DNA of 64,000 bases from Thermodesulfovibrio thiophilus DSM 17215 (GTDB lineage: Bacteria > Nitrospirota > Thermodesulfovibrionia > Thermodesulfovibrionales > Thermodesulfovibrionaceae), in contig NZ_AUIU01000015.1 in the NCBI RefSeq assembly GCF_000423865.1, positions 1 through 64,000 of the forward strand, written 5' to 3'. Positions 27,254-35,631 of the stretch are shown piece after piece. Under the pieces are notes generated by a model that did not search any database, was not told the origin of the DNA, and saw nothing but the letters and a program-made list of their open reading frames with translations. A program made the position numbers and the translations under genes. Numbering within the stretch: the first letter of the stretch is position 1; each line of letters starts with the position of its first letter.

Positions 27254-28093
27254 TTAACTCAGTAGAAAATCTTTTTGCTTGTCAAATTTTATTGTAAACA
27301 ATCCTATGAGCTCTTTTAGAGATTCTTCTGTCATCCCAACGGATTCATAATCTATTTCAGTTTCAATGGGATCTTTTAACCCTATTGCAAGATTAAGACA
27401 TATCTGGTCTGCAACTCTGACCAGGTTACAGATGTTTGCAAAAGCCTGATCTTCATAATCCGGATAAGGATAGGTATGATGATAAGTTATAATCATTTCT
27501 AATTTTTCAGGAAGTTTCCACTTTTTAGCTATAAGATTGCCTATGGTTGTGTGATTAAATCCAAGTACCTCATTTTCGATTTCAATTAACGTACGTTTTT
27601 CTTTATACATTTTTTCATAAATTTGTATATACAGTTCAGGCATTGCATTGTTGATTACTGTTTTACCAACATCATGCATTAATCCACACACAAGAGCCTC
27701 ATCTGAGGTAGCAAGACGCGTTACCATGGCAAGCAAACTTGAACATAGAGCAACTCCAAGACTGTGTTCCCACAGTTTTTGCTCAAATATTCCAAATTGC
27801 CTGTTCAAATCTTTCAAAGATGCTGCAATCACAAGTGATTTTAAAGTTTCAAAACCTATAAGAAGCAGAGCTTGAGAAATATCTTCAATTTTTCTATCTC
27901 TACCGTAATATGGAGAGTTTGCTATTCTTAAAAGTCTTGTTGCAAAACCCTGGTCACGTGATATTATTTCTTCTAGAGCTTTTAAAGAAGCGAAATCATC
28001 TTTTATAAGATTCATCACTTTCATGGCAACTGGAGGCAAAGAAGGGATATCAACTGTTTTAAGAATGATTCTTTCTATCATTTCTTCCTGCAA
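27254..28093 (-). CDS. HDOD-domain protein
   Basis: This 279-residue protein consists mostly of one HDOD domain (IPSLPPVAMKVMNLIKDD, ISRDQGFATRLLRIANSPYYG, ALLLIGFETLKSLV) with an intact HD pair in CGLMHDVGKTVIN. HDOD proteins act in signalling, often beside c-di-GMP or chemotaxis modules; most have no shown catalytic activity. It lies 9 bp after cheB in the chemotaxis cluster and may link motility to another signal. Confidence 0.87.
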   Translation of the reverse strand: MQEEMIERIILKTVDIPSLPPVAMKVMNLIKDDFASLKALEEIISRDQGFATRLLRIANSPYYGRDRKIEDISQALLLIGFETLKSLVIAASLKDLNRQFGIFEQKLWEHSLGVALCSSLLAMVTRLATSDEALVCGLMHDVGKTVINNAMPELYIQIYEKMYKEKRTLIEIENEVLGFNHTTIGNLIAKKWKLPEKLEMIITYHHTYPYPDYEDQAFANICNLVRVADQICLNLAIGLKDPIETEIDYESVGMTEESLKELIGLFTIKFDKQKDFLLS

Positions 28094-28102
28094 GGCATCC
28101 TC

Positions 28103-29155
28103 CTATACTGAATTTATTATTTCACCAGCTATCTCTTCAAGAGGTATTACTTTATCAGCAATACCTGCTTCTACTACTGCACGTGGCATACCGTATACTA
28201 CACAACTTTCTTCACTTTGAGCAAATACTCTTCCGCCAGTTTCTTTTATTCTTTTACATCCTTTAGCTCCATCATTCCCCATGCCAGTTAATATTACTCC
28301 AAGACTTCTACCTGGGAAACAATCTGCAACAGAGAACATCAGAAAATCCACACTTGGCCTGTATATAAATTCTTCTTTTTCCTCTGAAATCGAAACATAA
28401 GTCTCAATACCTCTTCTTTTAATTCTCATATGTCCTCTGCCAGGAGCTACATATACAATGCCAGGTTTTACACTTTCTCCTTCTTCAGCTTCTTTAACAT
28501 GAAGATGACTTAGCTGGTCAAGCCTCTCTGCAAAAGGTTTTGTGAAATTTGGTGGCATGTGTTGTGCAATTACCACTGGAACTGGAAAATCTTTTGGTAG
28601 TTTTGGAATTATTTCCTGTAAAGCTTTAGGCCCACCTGTTGATGTACCTATTGATACTATACCTACTTTTCTTTCTCCAGTTGTTCTAACCTTTGGCATT
28701 TCTTTTGGTATTTCAATTTGTTTCTCTGTTGTTTTAGATACAGGTCTTTTCCTTACAATGCCTCTTTTGCCTATTGTTTTAATTTTATCTATGAGCATGC
28801 TTTTGATCTTGACAATGTTGACGGATAGTTCTGCCAGGTTTTTAGGAATAAAATCAACAGCCCCAAGTTCAAGAGCTTCAAGTGTTACCTTTGCTCCTTC
28901 TGTTGTTAATGAACTAACCATGATCACAGGAACCGGGTTTTTCTGCATTATTTCTTTTAATGCAGTGATTCCGTCCATTCTTGGCATCTCAACATCCATT
29001 GTTACTATATCAGGTTTAAGTTCCTGAACCATCTGAACAGCTTCAATTCCATCTCTTGCCATGCCGATTACTTTTATCTCAGGGTCTTCCTGAAGCATTG
29101 AAGATATAGCTTTTCTCATGAATGCAGAGTCATCTACAACAAGTACTTTAATCAT
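28103..29155 (-). CDS. cheB: Chemotaxis methylesterase CheB
   Basis: CheB removes methyl groups from chemoreceptors (and deamidates glutamines) to reset the adaptation system; phosphorylation by CheA activates it. The 350-residue protein has an N-terminal receiver domain with acceptor D54 (DIVTMDVEMP), a linker near 120-160, and the methylesterase domain with Ser in GTSTGGPKAL, His in QHMPPNF and Asp in GMGNDGAKG. It lies 12 bp after the cheW/Z gene. Confidence 0.96.
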   Translation of the reverse strand: MIKVLVVDDSAFMRKAISSMLQEDPEIKVIGMARDGIEAVQMVQELKPDIVTMDVEMPRMDGITALKEIMQKNPVPVIMVSSLTTEGAKVTLEALELGAVDFIPKNLAELSVNIVKIKSMLIDKIKTIGKRGIVRKRPVSKTTEKQIEIPKEMPKVRTTGERKVGIVSIGTSTGGPKALQEIIPKLPKDFPVPVVIAQHMPPNFTKPFAERLDQLSHLHVKEAEEGESVKPGIVYVAPGRGHMRIKRRGIETYVSISEEKEEFIYRPSVDFLMFSVADCFPGRSLGVILTGMGNDGAKGCKRIKETGGRVFAQSEESCVVYGMPRAVVEAGIADKVIPLEEIAGEIINSV

Positions 29156-29167
29156 ATATCGCGCTCC

Positions 29168-30352
29168 TTAAAAGCCAAATTCTTTAAGTAAGTCATCTAC
29201 ATCTTCCTGTGAAACTTTTTCAGTTTCTTTTTGAACTACTTCTTTTTCTTCAATTTTTAATCCAAACGTTTTTATGAGTCTGATAAGCTCAACTTCCAGG
29301 TCTCCTACAAGTGATATCACTTTTTTAAGAACCTGTCCTGTTAAATCCTGAAAGGATTGAGTTGTGATAATTTCGGTTAGATCATCTTCAAGAGAGTTTT
29401 TAAAATTTTTAAGAACCTCTATACTTTCTGCTGGTCCCTGAATTTGTCTTAAATGATTTGAAAAGTTATCCATCTGTAAAATATATTTTTCAGCAATTTC
29501 TAAAGTTCTTTGAGCTGCTTCTTCTGTTTTATCAATGACCATCTGAAGTTGATCAACTGCTCGAGGCATCTTTTCTGTAGCAATTTCTTTCAATCTTGGA
29601 TCAAGAGCTTCTCTAAAATTTTTCAGAGAATCATGTAGCTTTCTTGCTACCTTTCCGACTTCCTTAAATAAATCACTCTGGCTTTTTTGAATAATGTTGT
29701 TCATTATTTTATTTGCCTGTTCGTAATCTCCCTGTGCAACCATATTCATAAAATTAGTTATCTCTTCTAGAAGCATATATTTTGGATCATCTTTTGATAG
29801 CCCCTTTTCTTGATAAAACTTGACCGGATCAACAATCTCTTTGAAGGTCATTTCTCCACCCATACCAGTAAGCTTTTTAATGACCTCAACTCTGTTACCA
29901 TCTTCATGGATTTCCACTATATCTTCTTCAAAAAGACTCTGGTCTTCAGTAGGAATTAATTTTTTTGTATCAAGCAAAACAAGTAATCTATCATTTAAAC
30001 GAGCAACTCCTTCCACCTGACTCTGGCCGTGTTGTAAAAATTCTTCAGCAGGCTCAATATCTTTTTCATCTATATTTACAACTCCTGTAATATCATCAAC
30101 CAAAGCACCAAATGTTATCTTTCCTGATGAAATTACAATTACTTTACTGCCAGGGCTTTGTTCTTGGATACCAAGAATTTTTTTTAAATTTACCACAGGA
30201 ATTATTCTGCCACGAAGATTTGTAACTCCTTCAACATAATAAGGGACACCTGGCATTTTTGTGATCTGAGGAAGTTTAATAATTTCCTGCACTTTAAGAA
30301 TAGGCACGGTGTATTCGTTTCTTTCAAGAATAAAACCGATATACTGTTTCAT
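29168..30352 (-). CDS. CheW-CheZ fusion protein
   Basis: This 394-residue protein joins two chemotaxis functions in one chain. Residues 1-140 form a CheW domain (YIGFILERNEYTVPILKVQEI, VTNLRGRIIPVVNLKK) that would couple CheA to receptors. Residues about 180-394 resemble CheZ, the CheY-phosphate phosphatase: long helices, the catalytic motif SFQDLTGQ with D336 and Q340 (D-x3-Q), and a C-terminal VDDLLKEFGF like the CheY-binding tail of CheZ. The fusion would place the phosphatase at the receptor array. No separate cheW or cheZ is in the cluster. Confidence 0.85.
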   Translation of the reverse strand: MKQYIGFILERNEYTVPILKVQEIIKLPQITKMPGVPYYVEGVTNLRGRIIPVVNLKKILGIQEQSPGSKVIVISSGKITFGALVDDITGVVNIDEKDIEPAEEFLQHGQSQVEGVARLNDRLLVLLDTKKLIPTEDQSLFEEDIVEIHEDGNRVEVIKKLTGMGGEMTFKEIVDPVKFYQEKGLSKDDPKYMLLEEITNFMNMVAQGDYEQANKIMNNIIQKSQSDLFKEVGKVARKLHDSLKNFREALDPRLKEIATEKMPRAVDQLQMVIDKTEEAAQRTLEIAEKYILQMDNFSNHLRQIQGPAESIEVLKNFKNSLEDDLTEIITTQSFQDLTGQVLKKVISLVGDLEVELIRLIKTFGLKIEEKEVVQKETEKVSQEDVDDLLKEFGF

Positions 30353-30370: not shown

Positions 30371-32080
30371 TTATTTTATAGTTAAAACTCTTCTTGAAAG
30401 TCCAGCAAGATCGAGTATTAAAACTACCTTTCCATCTCCTGTTATGGTAGCACCCATTATTCCACATTCTTCTGAATCTATACCATTTATTGTTTTTATA
30501 ACAATTTCTTCCTGCCCAAGCACAGATTCAACGGAAATACAGAATTTTCTGTCTCCCACAGATGCAACAAGAACATATTTCCTATCATTATCGGCATTAT
30601 CGGGAGCTCCAAGAATATCATTAAGTAAAAAAAGCGGTAATACTCGATCTCTTATTGTCAGAACCTTCTGTCCTGTTACTTCTTTAATATCATTAATACT
30701 AATTCTTAATGTTTCTTCAATCATAGACTGAGGAATAGCATAAATTTCATTTCCTACCTGAACCATCATGGCCTGAATTATTGCGAGCGTGAGAGGTAGA
30801 CTGATTCTGAATGTTGTACCCTTATCTTTTTCAGTAAAAATTTCTACATAGCCATTAAGTTTTGCAACATTTGATTTAACCACATCCATCCCGACACCAC
30901 GTCCACTTACCTCTGTTGAAACATCTTTTGTTGAGAAACCAGGTAAAAAAATTAAATTTATTATAGCTTCCTCAGACATTTTTTCAGCTTCTTCTAGTGT
31001 AATTAATCCCTTTGTAATGGCCTTTGCTTTAACTGCTTCGTAATCTATTCCCTTACCATCATCGGTGATATCTATTACAATCTGAGTTCCTTTTTGATAA
31101 GCATTTATAACGATTTTACCTTTTGGAGATTTACCTTTTAATTCTCTTTCTTCTGGAGTTTCTATACCGTGATCTAATGAGTTTCTTATTATGTGGACAA
31201 GAGGATCTCCAATGTGTTCAATGACTGATTTGTCAACTTCTGTATCTTCACCTATAATCTCTAGGTCAACTTCTTTATTAAGTGCTCTTGCAAGATCTCT
31301 TACCATTCTTGGGAATTTTACAAAAACTTTCTGAAGCGGTTGCATTCTCATTTTCATTACTGCAAGCTGTAAATCAGAGGTAACTCTATCAAGAAAAGAG
31401 GTTGTTTCAATCAGTCCTTCTACATGTTCATCTCCTGCATATTTTGCTTCAAGTTTATTCGATAAATTAAGAAGTCTGTTGCGGGCTAAAACTATCTCAC
31501 CAGCAAGGTCCATTACTTTATCTATTCTTTCTACATCAACTCTGAGAGTGGAAACTTCTTTTTCTTTCTCTTTTGGAATCTGTGTAACAATGTCTTCAGC
31601 TTTTGGAATTTTTGTTTCAGGTTCTTCTGATAATGGTTCTTCAGGCTTCTGTTCAGTCTCTGGTTGTTCAGCTTCTTTTAATTGTTCTGAAGAAGATTTC
31701 TCAAGTGTTTTATCAAGTAACTCAAGAACAGGTTGGATATTTTCTAGTACTTCATCTTTTGCTTTAATATGAGAAATTAGCAGTCGTAATGTATCTGTTG
31801 CTTTAAGAATAGCATCAGTTATCTCTGGAGAAATATGTATTTCTCCTTCCCTTACTTTTTTTAAAATAGTTTCTGCTCTGTGTGCAACATCAACGACATC
31901 TTGAAAGCCCAAAAATCCGGCAGCACCTTTAAGAGTATGCATACCTCTGAATATTTCGTTTATGATTTCAGGATCCTGGCCTTTTTGTTCCAGTTCAACA
32001 AAAAGAGGATCAAGTTGTTCAAGAATTTCTTCTGCTTCAACAATAAATTCGTTTATTATCTCATCCATCTCATCAGCCAT
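30371..32080 (-). CDS. cheA: Chemotaxis histidine kinase CheA
   Basis: CheA is the central kinase that passes phosphate to CheY and CheB in response to receptor state. The 569-residue protein has P1 with H48 in MHTLKGAAGFLGF, dimerisation domain P3 (VDVERIDKVMDLAGEIVLARNRL), the kinase domain P4 (HIIRNSLDHGIE, DDGKGID, GRGVGMDVVK) and the CheW-like P5 at the C terminus. A Pro/Glu-rich linker near 120-170 stands where P2 usually lies, so a P2 (CheY/CheB-docking) domain seems absent. It abuts one cheY upstream and lies 18 bp before cheW/Z. Confidence 0.96.
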   Translation of the reverse strand: MADEMDEIINEFIVEAEEILEQLDPLFVELEQKGQDPEIINEIFRGMHTLKGAAGFLGFQDVVDVAHRAETILKKVREGEIHISPEITDAILKATDTLRLLISHIKAKDEVLENIQPVLELLDKTLEKSSSEQLKEAEQPETEQKPEEPLSEEPETKIPKAEDIVTQIPKEKEKEVSTLRVDVERIDKVMDLAGEIVLARNRLLNLSNKLEAKYAGDEHVEGLIETTSFLDRVTSDLQLAVMKMRMQPLQKVFVKFPRMVRDLARALNKEVDLEIIGEDTEVDKSVIEHIGDPLVHIIRNSLDHGIETPEERELKGKSPKGKIVINAYQKGTQIVIDITDDGKGIDYEAVKAKAITKGLITLEEAEKMSEEAIINLIFLPGFSTKDVSTEVSGRGVGMDVVKSNVAKLNGYVEIFTEKDKGTTFRISLPLTLAIIQAMMVQVGNEIYAIPQSMIEETLRISINDIKEVTGQKVLTIRDRVLPLFLLNDILGAPDNADNDRKYVLVASVGDRKFCISVESVLGQEEIVIKTINGIDSEECGIMGATITGDGKVVLILDLAGLSRRVLTIK

Positions 32081-32484
32081 TACTGTCCTCCCTTAAGAGA
32101 TGGTTTTTTCTGAGCGATTTTTTCAAGTTTCTCTTTTAAAACTTCTCCTGTAAATGGTTTAACTATGTAATTGTCAACTCCGGCTTTTATCGCTTCGATA
32201 ACTTTCTCTTTCTCAGCCTCTGCTGTAACCATTAAAAAAGGGATATCTTTTAATGCTGGATCACTTCTTACATTTTTTAAAAGATCAATGCCTTCCATAA
32301 CAGGCATATTCCAATCACAAACTACAAGCCCATATTCTGAATTTCTTAATTTTTTAAGAGCTTCTTCTCCATTCTCTGCTTCATCAATGTTTTCAAAACC
32401 AAGCTGTTTAAGAAGATTTTTTATAATTCGCCGCATCGTTGGGAAGTCATCTACAACAAGAACTTTTATCTTATAATTAAACAT
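32080..32484 (-). CDS. cheY: CheY-type response regulator
   Basis: This 134-residue single receiver domain has acceptor D57 in CDWNMP, the acidic pair VVDD, Thr/Ala in VTAEAEKE and Lys in VKPFTGE. CDWNMP with a following MEG is the typical CheY sequence, so this copy is the best candidate for the motor-binding CheY. The start at 32484 follows AGGAGG; an upstream ATG at 32511 is unlikely. It overlaps the other cheY-like gene by 8 bp and cheA by 1 bp. Confidence 0.93.
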   Translation of the reverse strand: MFNYKIKVLVVDDFPTMRRIIKNLLKQLGFENIDEAENGEEALKKLRNSEYGLVVCDWNMPVMEGIDLLKNVRSDPALKDIPFLMVTAEAEKEKVIEAIKAGVDNYIVKPFTGEVLKEKLEKIAQKKPSLKGGQ

Positions 32485-32884
32485 CGTAACCTCCTGATAT
32501 CTTTTTATCAAATTTACTAAAAAATTTTTTCAAAATCTTTTTTATGCTTTGTGAAATTTCCTCAGAAGTTGTAGGTTTTACAAGATAATCATCAACTCCT
32601 GCTTCGAAAGCTTTTCTCTTTTCTTCTTCATCAGCCTCTGTTGTTATCATAACAATAGGAATATTAGAACGCTCTTGGCTAGATCTTATTTGCTTGACAA
32701 GCTCTATGCCATCCATATAAGGCATATTCATATCTGTAAGAATCAAATTTATATCTTCAATACCTAACTTTTGTAATGCTTCTATACCATTTTCAGCTGT
32801 TACAACCTCATATCCCTTACTGTTGAGAATTAAAGAAATCATTTTTCGAGTTGTTTTATCATCATCCACTACAAGGACTTTCAT
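32477..32884 (-). CDS. Second CheY-like response regulator
   Basis: This 135-residue single receiver domain has acceptor D51 (LILTDMNMPYMDG), with VVDDD, TTEADEE and VKPTTSEE. A tail of about 15 residues (KKFFSKFDKKISGGYDV) is basic. It may compete with the other CheY for phosphate from CheA or act on a different target. It sits between cheR and the typical cheY. Confidence 0.92.
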   Translation of the reverse strand: MKVLVVDDDKTTRKMISLILNSKGYEVVTAENGIEALQKLGIEDINLILTDMNMPYMDGIELVKQIRSSQERSNIPIVMITTEADEEEKRKAFEAGVDDYLVKPTTSEEISQSIKKILKKFFSKFDKKISGGYDV

Positions 32885-32896
32885 AATATCCTCCTA

Positions 32897-33748
32897 TTAA
32901 ACTTTTTGATATACAACAACTTTATTTATAACTACAGGATGGAAAGCCCTCGTAATATTGTGAAGACTTTCAGATGTTCCAACAAACAGATATCCTTTAG
33001 GACGTAAAACATCATAAATCAGAGAAACAGCTTTCTTTTTTGCCTTATCATCAAAATAAATTAATACATTTCTGCAGAACACAACATCCAGTCCCTTAAG
33101 CTGTTTTACTTCTTTTTCTTCTATAAGATTTATATTCATAAATTTCACCATTGATTTTATGGTTTCTGAAAGAACATATACGCCACTTGAATCTTTAAAA
33201 TATTTTGCCAGATATTGAGGTGGAACATTTCTGATTGAATAAGAGCCATACATGGCTCTCTTAGCAGAAATAAGCACACTCTCACTTATATCTGAAGCAT
33301 ATATCTCTTTTCTGAATGAAATTAATTCCTGTTTATCAGCTAAAATCATGGCAATTGTATAAGGTTCTTCTCCTGTTGAACACGCAGCAGACCAGATTTT
33401 TATATCTTTTCTTCCCATTTGCGAATTTTCTTTTATTATCTGTGAAATAAGAGGATCCGAAAAAACTTCAAATTGCTGTGGTTCTCTAAAGAAAAATGTT
33501 TCATTTGTTGTAATAGTATCATAAAGCTTTGCTATATCCTGCTTTGTAGCACTGTATTTTAAAAAATAAAGATAGTCTTCAAAATTGCGTAAATTTTTAT
33601 CTCTTAAAATTTTACTGAGTCTGTTTTCTAAAAAATATTTTTTATTGTCAGGTACATATATGCCTGTTTTTTCATAAATAAAGTCTCTGAGCTGTACAAA
33701 CACTTCGTCAGATATTGTTCCAGAAGAGGATGCAGCCAGTGCTATCAT
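32897..33748 (-). CDS. cheR: Chemotaxis protein methyltransferase CheR
   Basis: CheR adds methyl groups from SAM to glutamates on chemoreceptors, opposing CheB. The 283-residue protein has the N-terminal helical domain (FVQLRDFIYEKTGIYVPDNKKYFLENRL), the SAM-binding KIWSAACSTGEEPYTIAM and LDVVFCRNVLIYFD. It overlaps the HEAT-repeat gene by 4 bp. The TPR extension seen in some CheR proteins is absent. Confidence 0.95.
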   Translation of the reverse strand: MIALAASSSGTISDEVFVQLRDFIYEKTGIYVPDNKKYFLENRLSKILRDKNLRNFEDYLYFLKYSATKQDIAKLYDTITTNETFFFREPQQFEVFSDPLISQIIKENSQMGRKDIKIWSAACSTGEEPYTIAMILADKQELISFRKEIYASDISESVLISAKRAMYGSYSIRNVPPQYLAKYFKDSSGVYVLSETIKSMVKFMNINLIEEKEVKQLKGLDVVFCRNVLIYFDDKAKKKAVSLIYDVLRPKGYLFVGTSESLHNITRAFHPVVINKVVVYQKV

Positions 33749-35631
33749 ATTCTCTGTAAAACCTCCTGTATCTTTTCTTTTACCTCTTGAGCAGGATGAT
33801 CTTTCTTCGGGACAAGTATGTCATAAACTTTCTCTGGATTTCCTGTTTCTTCCAGAGCTTCTATAGCGGCAATTACAACAGGAGGAAATGGGTCATCAAG
33901 AAGAGATGATATTTTCTCTAATAAAATTTCAGGATCACATGCTTTACTGATAGCTTTAATTGTATAGTATCTGATCCAGGGATCTTCATCTTCCAGACAT
34001 TGAAGCAGTTCTTCAGAACAAAAATTAGCCTCTCCAAGTGCTAAAATAGCTGATTTTTTTAAGTCTTTATCTTCAGATTTAATGAATTCAAGAATTTTAT
34101 TTAATGCTTCTGGTGAGGCGAGCTTTCCCAGTTGATAAATGGCTGCTTTACGAACTTCTTTATCATCGCATTGAATAAGCATATTCAGAATATCCATTGA
34201 ATATGTTATGCCAGCAAGAGCTTTTTTTACTTCCCTTTTATAAGATTTTAAATTCTTTAGAAATTTTTCCTGGTCAATGATTAAAAGAGCTTCTACAATT
34301 GTTTCAATATTATCTTGATATATCTCTCTTTCAAGCAAATCTAACAGAGAGTCATATGCTTCAGAAGCTCTTATCATTCCTAAAGCCTGTATTGCTGCTT
34401 TTCTAACATTTGCATCAGGATCTTCATGACTCTTTTTTACCAGATGCTGTATAGTTTCCTTTGCACCGATATCACCAAGAGCCCTTGCAGAGGCAATTCT
34501 TATGTCTCTTTTTATGTCTTCAAGAAGTTTTATTAAAATTGGGATGGCTTTTTTGCTTTTTAATCTACCAAGCACTCTGATAACAAAAGCTTTAGCTCGA
34601 TATTTGAGTTTATTGTTTGCAAGCATAGAAATTAAAGCATCTTCAGAATTTATATAAACGAGGGTGTCTTCTAATGCTTTAATTTTTTCTTCATAATCAA
34701 AACATGAAGGATCAAGAGCTCCTGCTTCTTCTACAATAAAAGAAGCTGCTTCTATAAGATTTGTTAATTTTATACCTTTTAATGCTATTAATTTTTCTTC
34801 CCATTCCTTACTTTGTAAAATAGATATAATTTCTTCCTTTAAATTGTACTCAAGTGGAATGATGTTTATTCTTATTAAAGCCTTTACTATTTCTATTCTT
34901 TCATCTTTATTCGCAACAGGAAAATATCTTAAAAGAGGTTCAGCAATTTTTTCTGTTCCAATTTTGCCAAGTGTTTCTATTGCTTCTGCTTTGATTACAA
35001 GGGAGTCTGTATTCAAAATAAGTTTACCTATTTGTTCTGCAGCTTCAGCTGCTTGAAGCATTGCCAGAGCCTGCAAAACATAAAAAACAATCCATTCTTC
35101 ATCTTTTAAACTCTCTATAAGAGCTGGTATTGCTTCTTTATATCCGAGTTCTCCCAATGCATTAGCAGCAGCAGCTCTTACATTTCCATTGTCATCTTTA
35201 AGTAGAGGAAGCACTTTTGATGGATCAAATCCGGTTTTTATTTGTCCGATTAAATCAAGAGCAAATTTTCTTATATCAGCATCTTTATCCTTTAAAAGTT
35301 TATATAAAAGTTCCGGTGCTCTGTGTCCGATTTCTTTTATAATCAATAGCGCTGTGTTTCTTAAATAAGTCTCCTCTTCTCTTAAGAGAGGGATAACCAT
35401 ATATGCAACAAGTTCTCCAGAATTTGTAAAGAATGCATTATCCGAATTGCCGAGATATATAAGAGATTGAGTTGCAGCTTCTTGAACAGCTGTGCTTTCA
35501 TCTCTTAAAGCTTTAATCAACGGATATACCGCCCGTTCATCGGCTTGAGCAAGCTCTTCTGCAGCTTTCCTGCGTCTAAAAGAATCAGGATGATTAAGAA
35601 GCCTGAAAACAGTTTGTTTTATATTTTTCAT
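33745..35631 (-). CDS. HEAT-repeat scaffold protein
   Basis: This 628-residue protein is built almost entirely of HEAT/PBS-lyase-type helical repeats of about 31 residues (for example DDNGNVRAAAANALGELGY and DPDANVRKAAIQALGMI), at least fifteen by eye. It has no signal peptide and no catalytic motif. It lies between fliA and cheR, overlapping cheR, so it probably organises a chemotaxis or flagellar complex. HEAT proteins occur in other non-enteric chemotaxis clusters. The partner is unknown. Confidence 0.85.
   Translation of the reverse strand: MKNIKQTVFRLLNHPDSFRRRKAAEELAQADERAVYPLIKALRDESTAVQEAATQSLIYLGNSDNAFFTNSGELVAYMVIPLLREEETYLRNTALLIIKEIGHRAPELLYKLLKDKDADIRKFALDLIGQIKTGFDPSKVLPLLKDDNGNVRAAAANALGELGYKEAIPALIESLKDEEWIVFYVLQALAMLQAAEAAEQIGKLILNTDSLVIKAEAIETLGKIGTEKIAEPLLRYFPVANKDERIEIVKALIRINIIPLEYNLKEEIISILQSKEWEEKLIALKGIKLTNLIEAASFIVEEAGALDPSCFDYEEKIKALEDTLVYINSEDALISMLANNKLKYRAKAFVIRVLGRLKSKKAIPILIKLLEDIKRDIRIASARALGDIGAKETIQHLVKKSHEDPDANVRKAAIQALGMIRASEAYDSLLDLLEREIYQDNIETIVEALLIIDQEKFLKNLKSYKREVKKALAGITYSMDILNMLIQCDDKEVRKAAIYQLGKLASPEALNKILEFIKSEDKDLKKSAILALGEANFCSEELLQCLEDEDPWIRYYTIKAISKACDPEILLEKISSLLDDPFPPVVIAAIEALEETGNPEKVYDILVPKKDHPAQEVKEKIQEVLQRI

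Follow-up and report, generated by a model that had tools for sequence, protein, structure and literature searches.

A CheW-CheZ gene in a flagellar chemotaxis cluster

The window, a stretch of 64,000 nucleotides from the Thermodesulfovibrio thiophilus genome, contains a chemotaxis cluster with the gene order cheR-RR2-cheY-cheA-cheWZ-cheB that adjoins flagellar genes (Table 1). The cheWZ gene is a single open reading frame in which an N-terminal CheW domain is followed by a C-terminal CheZ domain. This architecture had been proposed in a sequence-only reading of the window, with coordinates that proved right, and it is borne out by a Pfam search that places PF01584 CheW at residues 3 to 134 (E 5.3e-35, 120 bits, far over the gathering cutoff) and PF04344 CheZ at residues 227 to 394 (E 7.2e-30, 104.8 bits against a cutoff of 30.7). 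When the window protein is aligned with 21 homologues of its order, both halves lie in one open frame and E23, R47, D336, and Q340 are invariant. Chance or artefact is ruled out by the high significance and conservation of both halves, and mis-assembly of two genes by the intact fusion across dozens of species and contigs. That the protein is a real, conserved fusion of CheW and CheZ is established. Literature searches did not return a description of it, and domain-architecture databases may list it. It is a novel combination of known parts.

Table 1. Fusion gene, its parts, and chemotaxis genes of the window genome (window positions unless a contig is given)
Feature	Position	Strand	Basis or remark
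cheW-cheZ fusion gene, 394 aa	29168..30352	-	Single ORF; Pfam CheW and CheZ
CheW domain, aa 3-134	29951..30346	-	Pfam; 2ho9 alignment; Foldseek of model against CheW structures, E 4e-13
Flexible linker and short helices, aa 135-226	29675..29950	-	Low pLDDT (about 50) at aa ~140-180 in model
CheZ domain, aa 227-394	29171..29674	-	Pfam; 1kmi profile match; predicted long helical hairpin
Turn of shortened helical hairpin, aa 304-307	29432..29443	-	Turn placed from model
Catalytic D336-x3-Q340 in FQDLTGQ	29333..29347	-	Aligned with E. coli CheZ D143/Q147; invariant in 49 fusions
C-terminal CheY-binding tail SQEDVDDLLKEFGF	29171..29212	-	Alignment; predicted tail helix 382-391
cheB	28103..29155	-	Pfam
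cheA	30371..32080	-	Pfam: Hpt, dimerisation, ATPase, CheW/P5; no P2 match
cheY, likely substrate	32080..32511	-	Close to Proteobacterial CheY
RR2, second single-domain response regulator	32477..32884	-	CheY-like; conserved in cluster
cheR	32897..33748	-	Pfam
Orphan canonical stand-alone cheW, 170 aa	C1:25126-25635		Elsewhere in window genome

An AF2 model of the fusion, built from 49 fusions (mean pLDDT 69.7, moderate confidence), has a CheW fold at residues 1 to 133, a poorly ordered stretch at about 140 to 180, a helical hairpin formed by 252 to 303 and 308 to 362, disorder at 364 to 380, and a tail helix at 382 to 391; it carries no information on array docking. The CheZ half modelled separately (mean pLDDT 75.3) has the same hairpin and tail helix. 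Foldseek matches the CheW half to structures of CheW and of CheA-P5, and the confident matches of the whole fusion model are CheW and CheA structures only.

The conserved gene order of the cluster is HEAT-cheR-RR2-cheY-cheA/cheWZ-cheB-cheW. In the window, a 628-aa HEAT-repeat protein is encoded at 33745-35631, and the linkage of HEAT and RR2 to cheR in several families (L251-L254) suggests an undescribed chemotaxis partner. An HDOD-domain protein is encoded at 27254-28093, directly after cheB and on the same strand.

The CheZ half retains the catalytic residues and the CheY-binding tail

A profile of the C-terminal half (22 sequences) aligns with E. coli CheZ (1kmi_Z) at an E of 2e-24, the match starting at residue 12 and reaching the final residue. 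In this alignment D336 and Q340 correspond to D143 and Q147 of E. coli CheZ, and the tail motif VDDLLKEFGF falls on VDDLLDSLGF, so that the D336-x3-Q340 pair and the tail named in the sequence-only reading are both present. D336, T338, G339, and Q340 are kept together with the CheY-binding tail in 49 aligned fusions, those of separate origin included, and with these residues the fusion would dephosphorylate CheY-P. E. coli CheZ is a dimer, and the fusion would dimerise through its CheZ half.

The hairpin is short: the spacer that separates two conserved helix motifs has 50 residues in the window clade versus 71 in free Proteobacterial CheZ, and in the alignment the E. coli-type aromatic apical tip is missing from the window-clade CheZ. 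Tip deletion was not upheld as a mark of fusion, and tip loss alone does not point to fusion, because a free CheZ (L052) likewise has a short hairpin tip. As alpha and delta CheZ, too, are reported to be without the CheA-short site (PMC7750401), tip shortening is not fusion-specific.

The fusion is accompanied by a stand-alone CheW

E23 and R47 of the CheW half are, in the 2ho9 alignment, the equivalents of E. coli CheW E38 and R62 and are invariant across the aligned fusions; the E38-R62 salt-bridge pair has been reported to be important for signaling (PMC3828127). Judging from this conservation, the CheW half would incorporate into the receptor-CheA array.

Six CheW-domain matches were found in the window genome: the fusion, its CheA, the orphan CheW, one on contig C15, and a CheW and CheA-receiver pair on contig C11 that belongs to a second chemosensory cluster. 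The che cluster has no separate cheW or cheZ, as the sequence-only reading had stated, but the genome has the orphan cheW and others. A reading of the fusion as the sole CheW is not supported. Orthologues of the orphan, 61-93% identical, are present in almost all genomes of the order that bear the fusion (as a contig-end fragment in G013; the exception is G015, 66% complete), and in three other families (L251-L253) the orthologous gene lies just after cheB, beside the fusion. In relatives without CheZ all matches to the orphan CheW are at 49% or lower, and a close orthologue is absent. Because an orthologous stand-alone CheW accompanies it, the fusion would be a second adaptor, one that carries a phosphatase.

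The cheW on C15 (L229, 6975-7424) lies on an apparent integrative or conjugative element, and its branch in the CheW tree is very long. Genus relatives also encode ORFs of ~500 aa with three tandem CheW domains (G012:C1:106976-108454, also G007 and G015).

Across the 99.8% complete window genome, the search returned no CheZ other than the fusion and no CheC or CheX match. The CheA of the cluster indeed gave no P2 match, as had been read from the sequence, but about 52% of CheAs lack this domain (PMC10542144). A CheA without P2 was rejected as special, and since P2 absence is the commonest deviation among CheAs, its link to the fusion is weak.

Distribution in three phyla

Genomes of three phyla were sampled; beyond the window's kin, group names were inferred from named loci that served as centres. 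A CheZ match is present in 238 of 396 Nitrospirota genomes. CheZ frames listed for the window's class, Thermodesulfovibrionia, are mostly about 395 to 485 aa long, and every complete frame examined carries CheW except L165 and L166; the fusion is the normal state of CheZ in this class. In L165, which comes from a single MAG, an in-frame TAG separates the halves (reverse strand, frame from 505); it is either a real split or an assembly error, and L167 and L168 are interrupted by contig ends. Nitrospirota beyond this class mostly have free CheZ of 200-290 aa, the exceptions being a divergent fusion in family f22 (L150-L152) and L153 in family f25.

In the Desulfobacterota-like group (345 genomes), most CheZ is free or joined to other regions; the window-type fusion is found in L203-L205, and L195/L196 have a fusion of a second type. 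Most long CheZ ORFs of this group were rejected as CheW-CheZ fusions, the additional length being another N-terminal region or a hairpin insert and not CheW. About 200-290 extra N-terminal residues are found in L178-L194, L171, and L173, with L185 and L191 being short and free; in L178 this region gives a weak Hpt match (E 0.009). A long insert within the CheZ hairpin is seen in L208-L217, L221, L222, and L227. CheZ frames from 348 Pseudomonadota genomes are mostly 200-300 aa, and CheW is absent from all of the ORFs checked there, ten of those with the longest CheZ frames.

Repeated origins and losses of the fusion

The CheZ tree contains 124 rows, 67 of them fused. A single origin fits the main fused group together with two nested free lineages (AU p 0.59), and a main group free of losses was rejected (p 5e-10 on excluding the nested free lineages). 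The nested lineages look like secondary losses on this tree and, since their exclusion is rejected, at least two losses of the CheW half are probable, in L052/L166/L206 and in L185/L191. The fusion is therefore not indispensable. What the sequence-only reading had named as weighing against it, a C-terminal half unlike CheZ or halves separated elsewhere, was essentially not found: separation is seen in the TAG of L165 and in these two free-CheZ lineages. The free CheZ of L166, L052, and L206 is very similar across the window's order and a Deltaproteobacteria-titled MAG, by transfer or mis-binning.

A single ancient origin that includes L195/L196 was rejected (AU p 0.0003), and the CheW tree agrees. 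Fused CheW domains form a divergent branch of their own in that tree, and the L195/L196 CheW nests outside the main fused branch, among stand-alone CheW orthologues. L195/L196 are on both grounds an independent fusion. A single origin that includes the f22 type was rejected more weakly (p 0.026, with long branches), and f22 is possibly a third independent fusion. All three types occur in che clusters adjoining cheY and cheA, and on the evidence of the trees the fusion arose on at least two separate occasions, each time in a flagellar che locus of the same kind.

A proposed phosphatase-bearing adaptor of the array

We consider the fusion, with a probability of about 0.78, to be a dedicated array adaptor that carries a CheY-P phosphatase and holds kinase and phosphatase together. 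The CheW domain would dock in the array of receptors and CheA, next to the ordinary stand-alone CheW, and the CheZ half, on its flexible linker, would capture CheY-P through the C-terminal tail for hydrolysis by D336 and Q340. Kinase and phosphatase would in this way be kept together covalently, in place of the binding of CheZ to CheA-short in E. coli, where part of CheZ is brought to arrays by CheA-short and the aromatic tip at the apex of the hairpin (PMC7750401). With the E. coli-type tip missing, anchoring would most simply be supplied by CheW. If CheZ dimerises as in E. coli, each dimer would join two CheW sites. Co-localisation of CheA and CheZ makes the E. coli response sharper and more sensitive (PMC2673030), and kinase/phosphatase co-localisation would be of benefit here. 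The best inference is that the fusion keeps CheY-P dephosphorylation at the array.

The conservation of the catalytic residues and tail across separate origins, and the fusion being the only CheY phosphatase found in the window genome, make it unlikely that the protein is mainly a structural or receptor-selective adaptor whose CheZ half dimerises or cross-links CheW sites, with phosphatase activity secondary. Such a role would nevertheless suit the coexistence with stand-alone CheW and the dimeric nature of E. coli CheZ. It also has a parallel in CheV, which has been proposed as a receptor-specific extra adaptor (PMC4742279).

That the CheW half no longer docks, the fusion being a historical accident and CheZ acting in the cytoplasm, is in line with the divergent branch of the fused CheW domains and with the lineages that lost CheW yet kept CheZ; it is very unlikely in view of the invariant E38/R62 equivalents, the 120-bit Pfam score, and the making of the same fusion by independent lineages. 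The halves could also work apart, an internal start or proteolysis freeing CheZ in the manner of CheA-short from cheA in E. coli, and both the predicted flexibility of the linker and the stop in L165 would agree with this. The candidate internal Met residues, M168 and M193, are however not conserved in the alignment, and we regard a freed CheZ as highly improbable.

The conserved and recurrent fusion suggests that keeping the off-switch beside the on-switch is under selection. We would put at even odds a further reading, in which CheW-CheZ makes up a third class of array adaptor beside CheW and CheV, with its phosphatase wired into the lattice; several bacterial lineages would have reached it independently, and co-localisation of CheY kinase and phosphatase would itself be a selected property of chemosensory arrays. 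For E. coli, modelling and mutants have been the basis for arguing whether and why CheZ has to be at the array. As the covalent fusion is natural and recurrent, and was lost in related lineages, the question becomes directly testable by comparison, and the fusion is a ready-made construct to fix CheZ at the array.

Comparison with known systems

The window CheZ shares with that of E. coli (PF04344, PDB 1kmi) the catalytic D and Q, the FQDxTGQ motif, a long hairpin (here predicted), and the CheY-binding tail, but it lies behind a CheW domain and its hairpin is about 21 residues shorter, without the tip that binds CheA-short. With CheW (PF01584) it has in common the CheW fold and the E38/R62 equivalents, whereas it bears a phosphatase and coexists with a canonical stand-alone CheW. 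CheV, which joins a CheW domain to a receiver, resembles the fusion in being an additional CheW-type adaptor whose second domain is expected to reduce CheY-P. The second domain of CheV is, however, a receiver proposed as a phosphate sink and that of the fusion a CheZ phosphatase; Pfam finds CheZ and no Response_reg after the CheW domain, and the fusion is not a CheV. As in the CheA-short/CheZ localisation of E. coli, CheZ would be placed at the receptor-kinase array, but the E. coli localisation is non-covalent, partial, and mediated by the CheZ apical tip, while that of the fusion would be covalent and through CheW.
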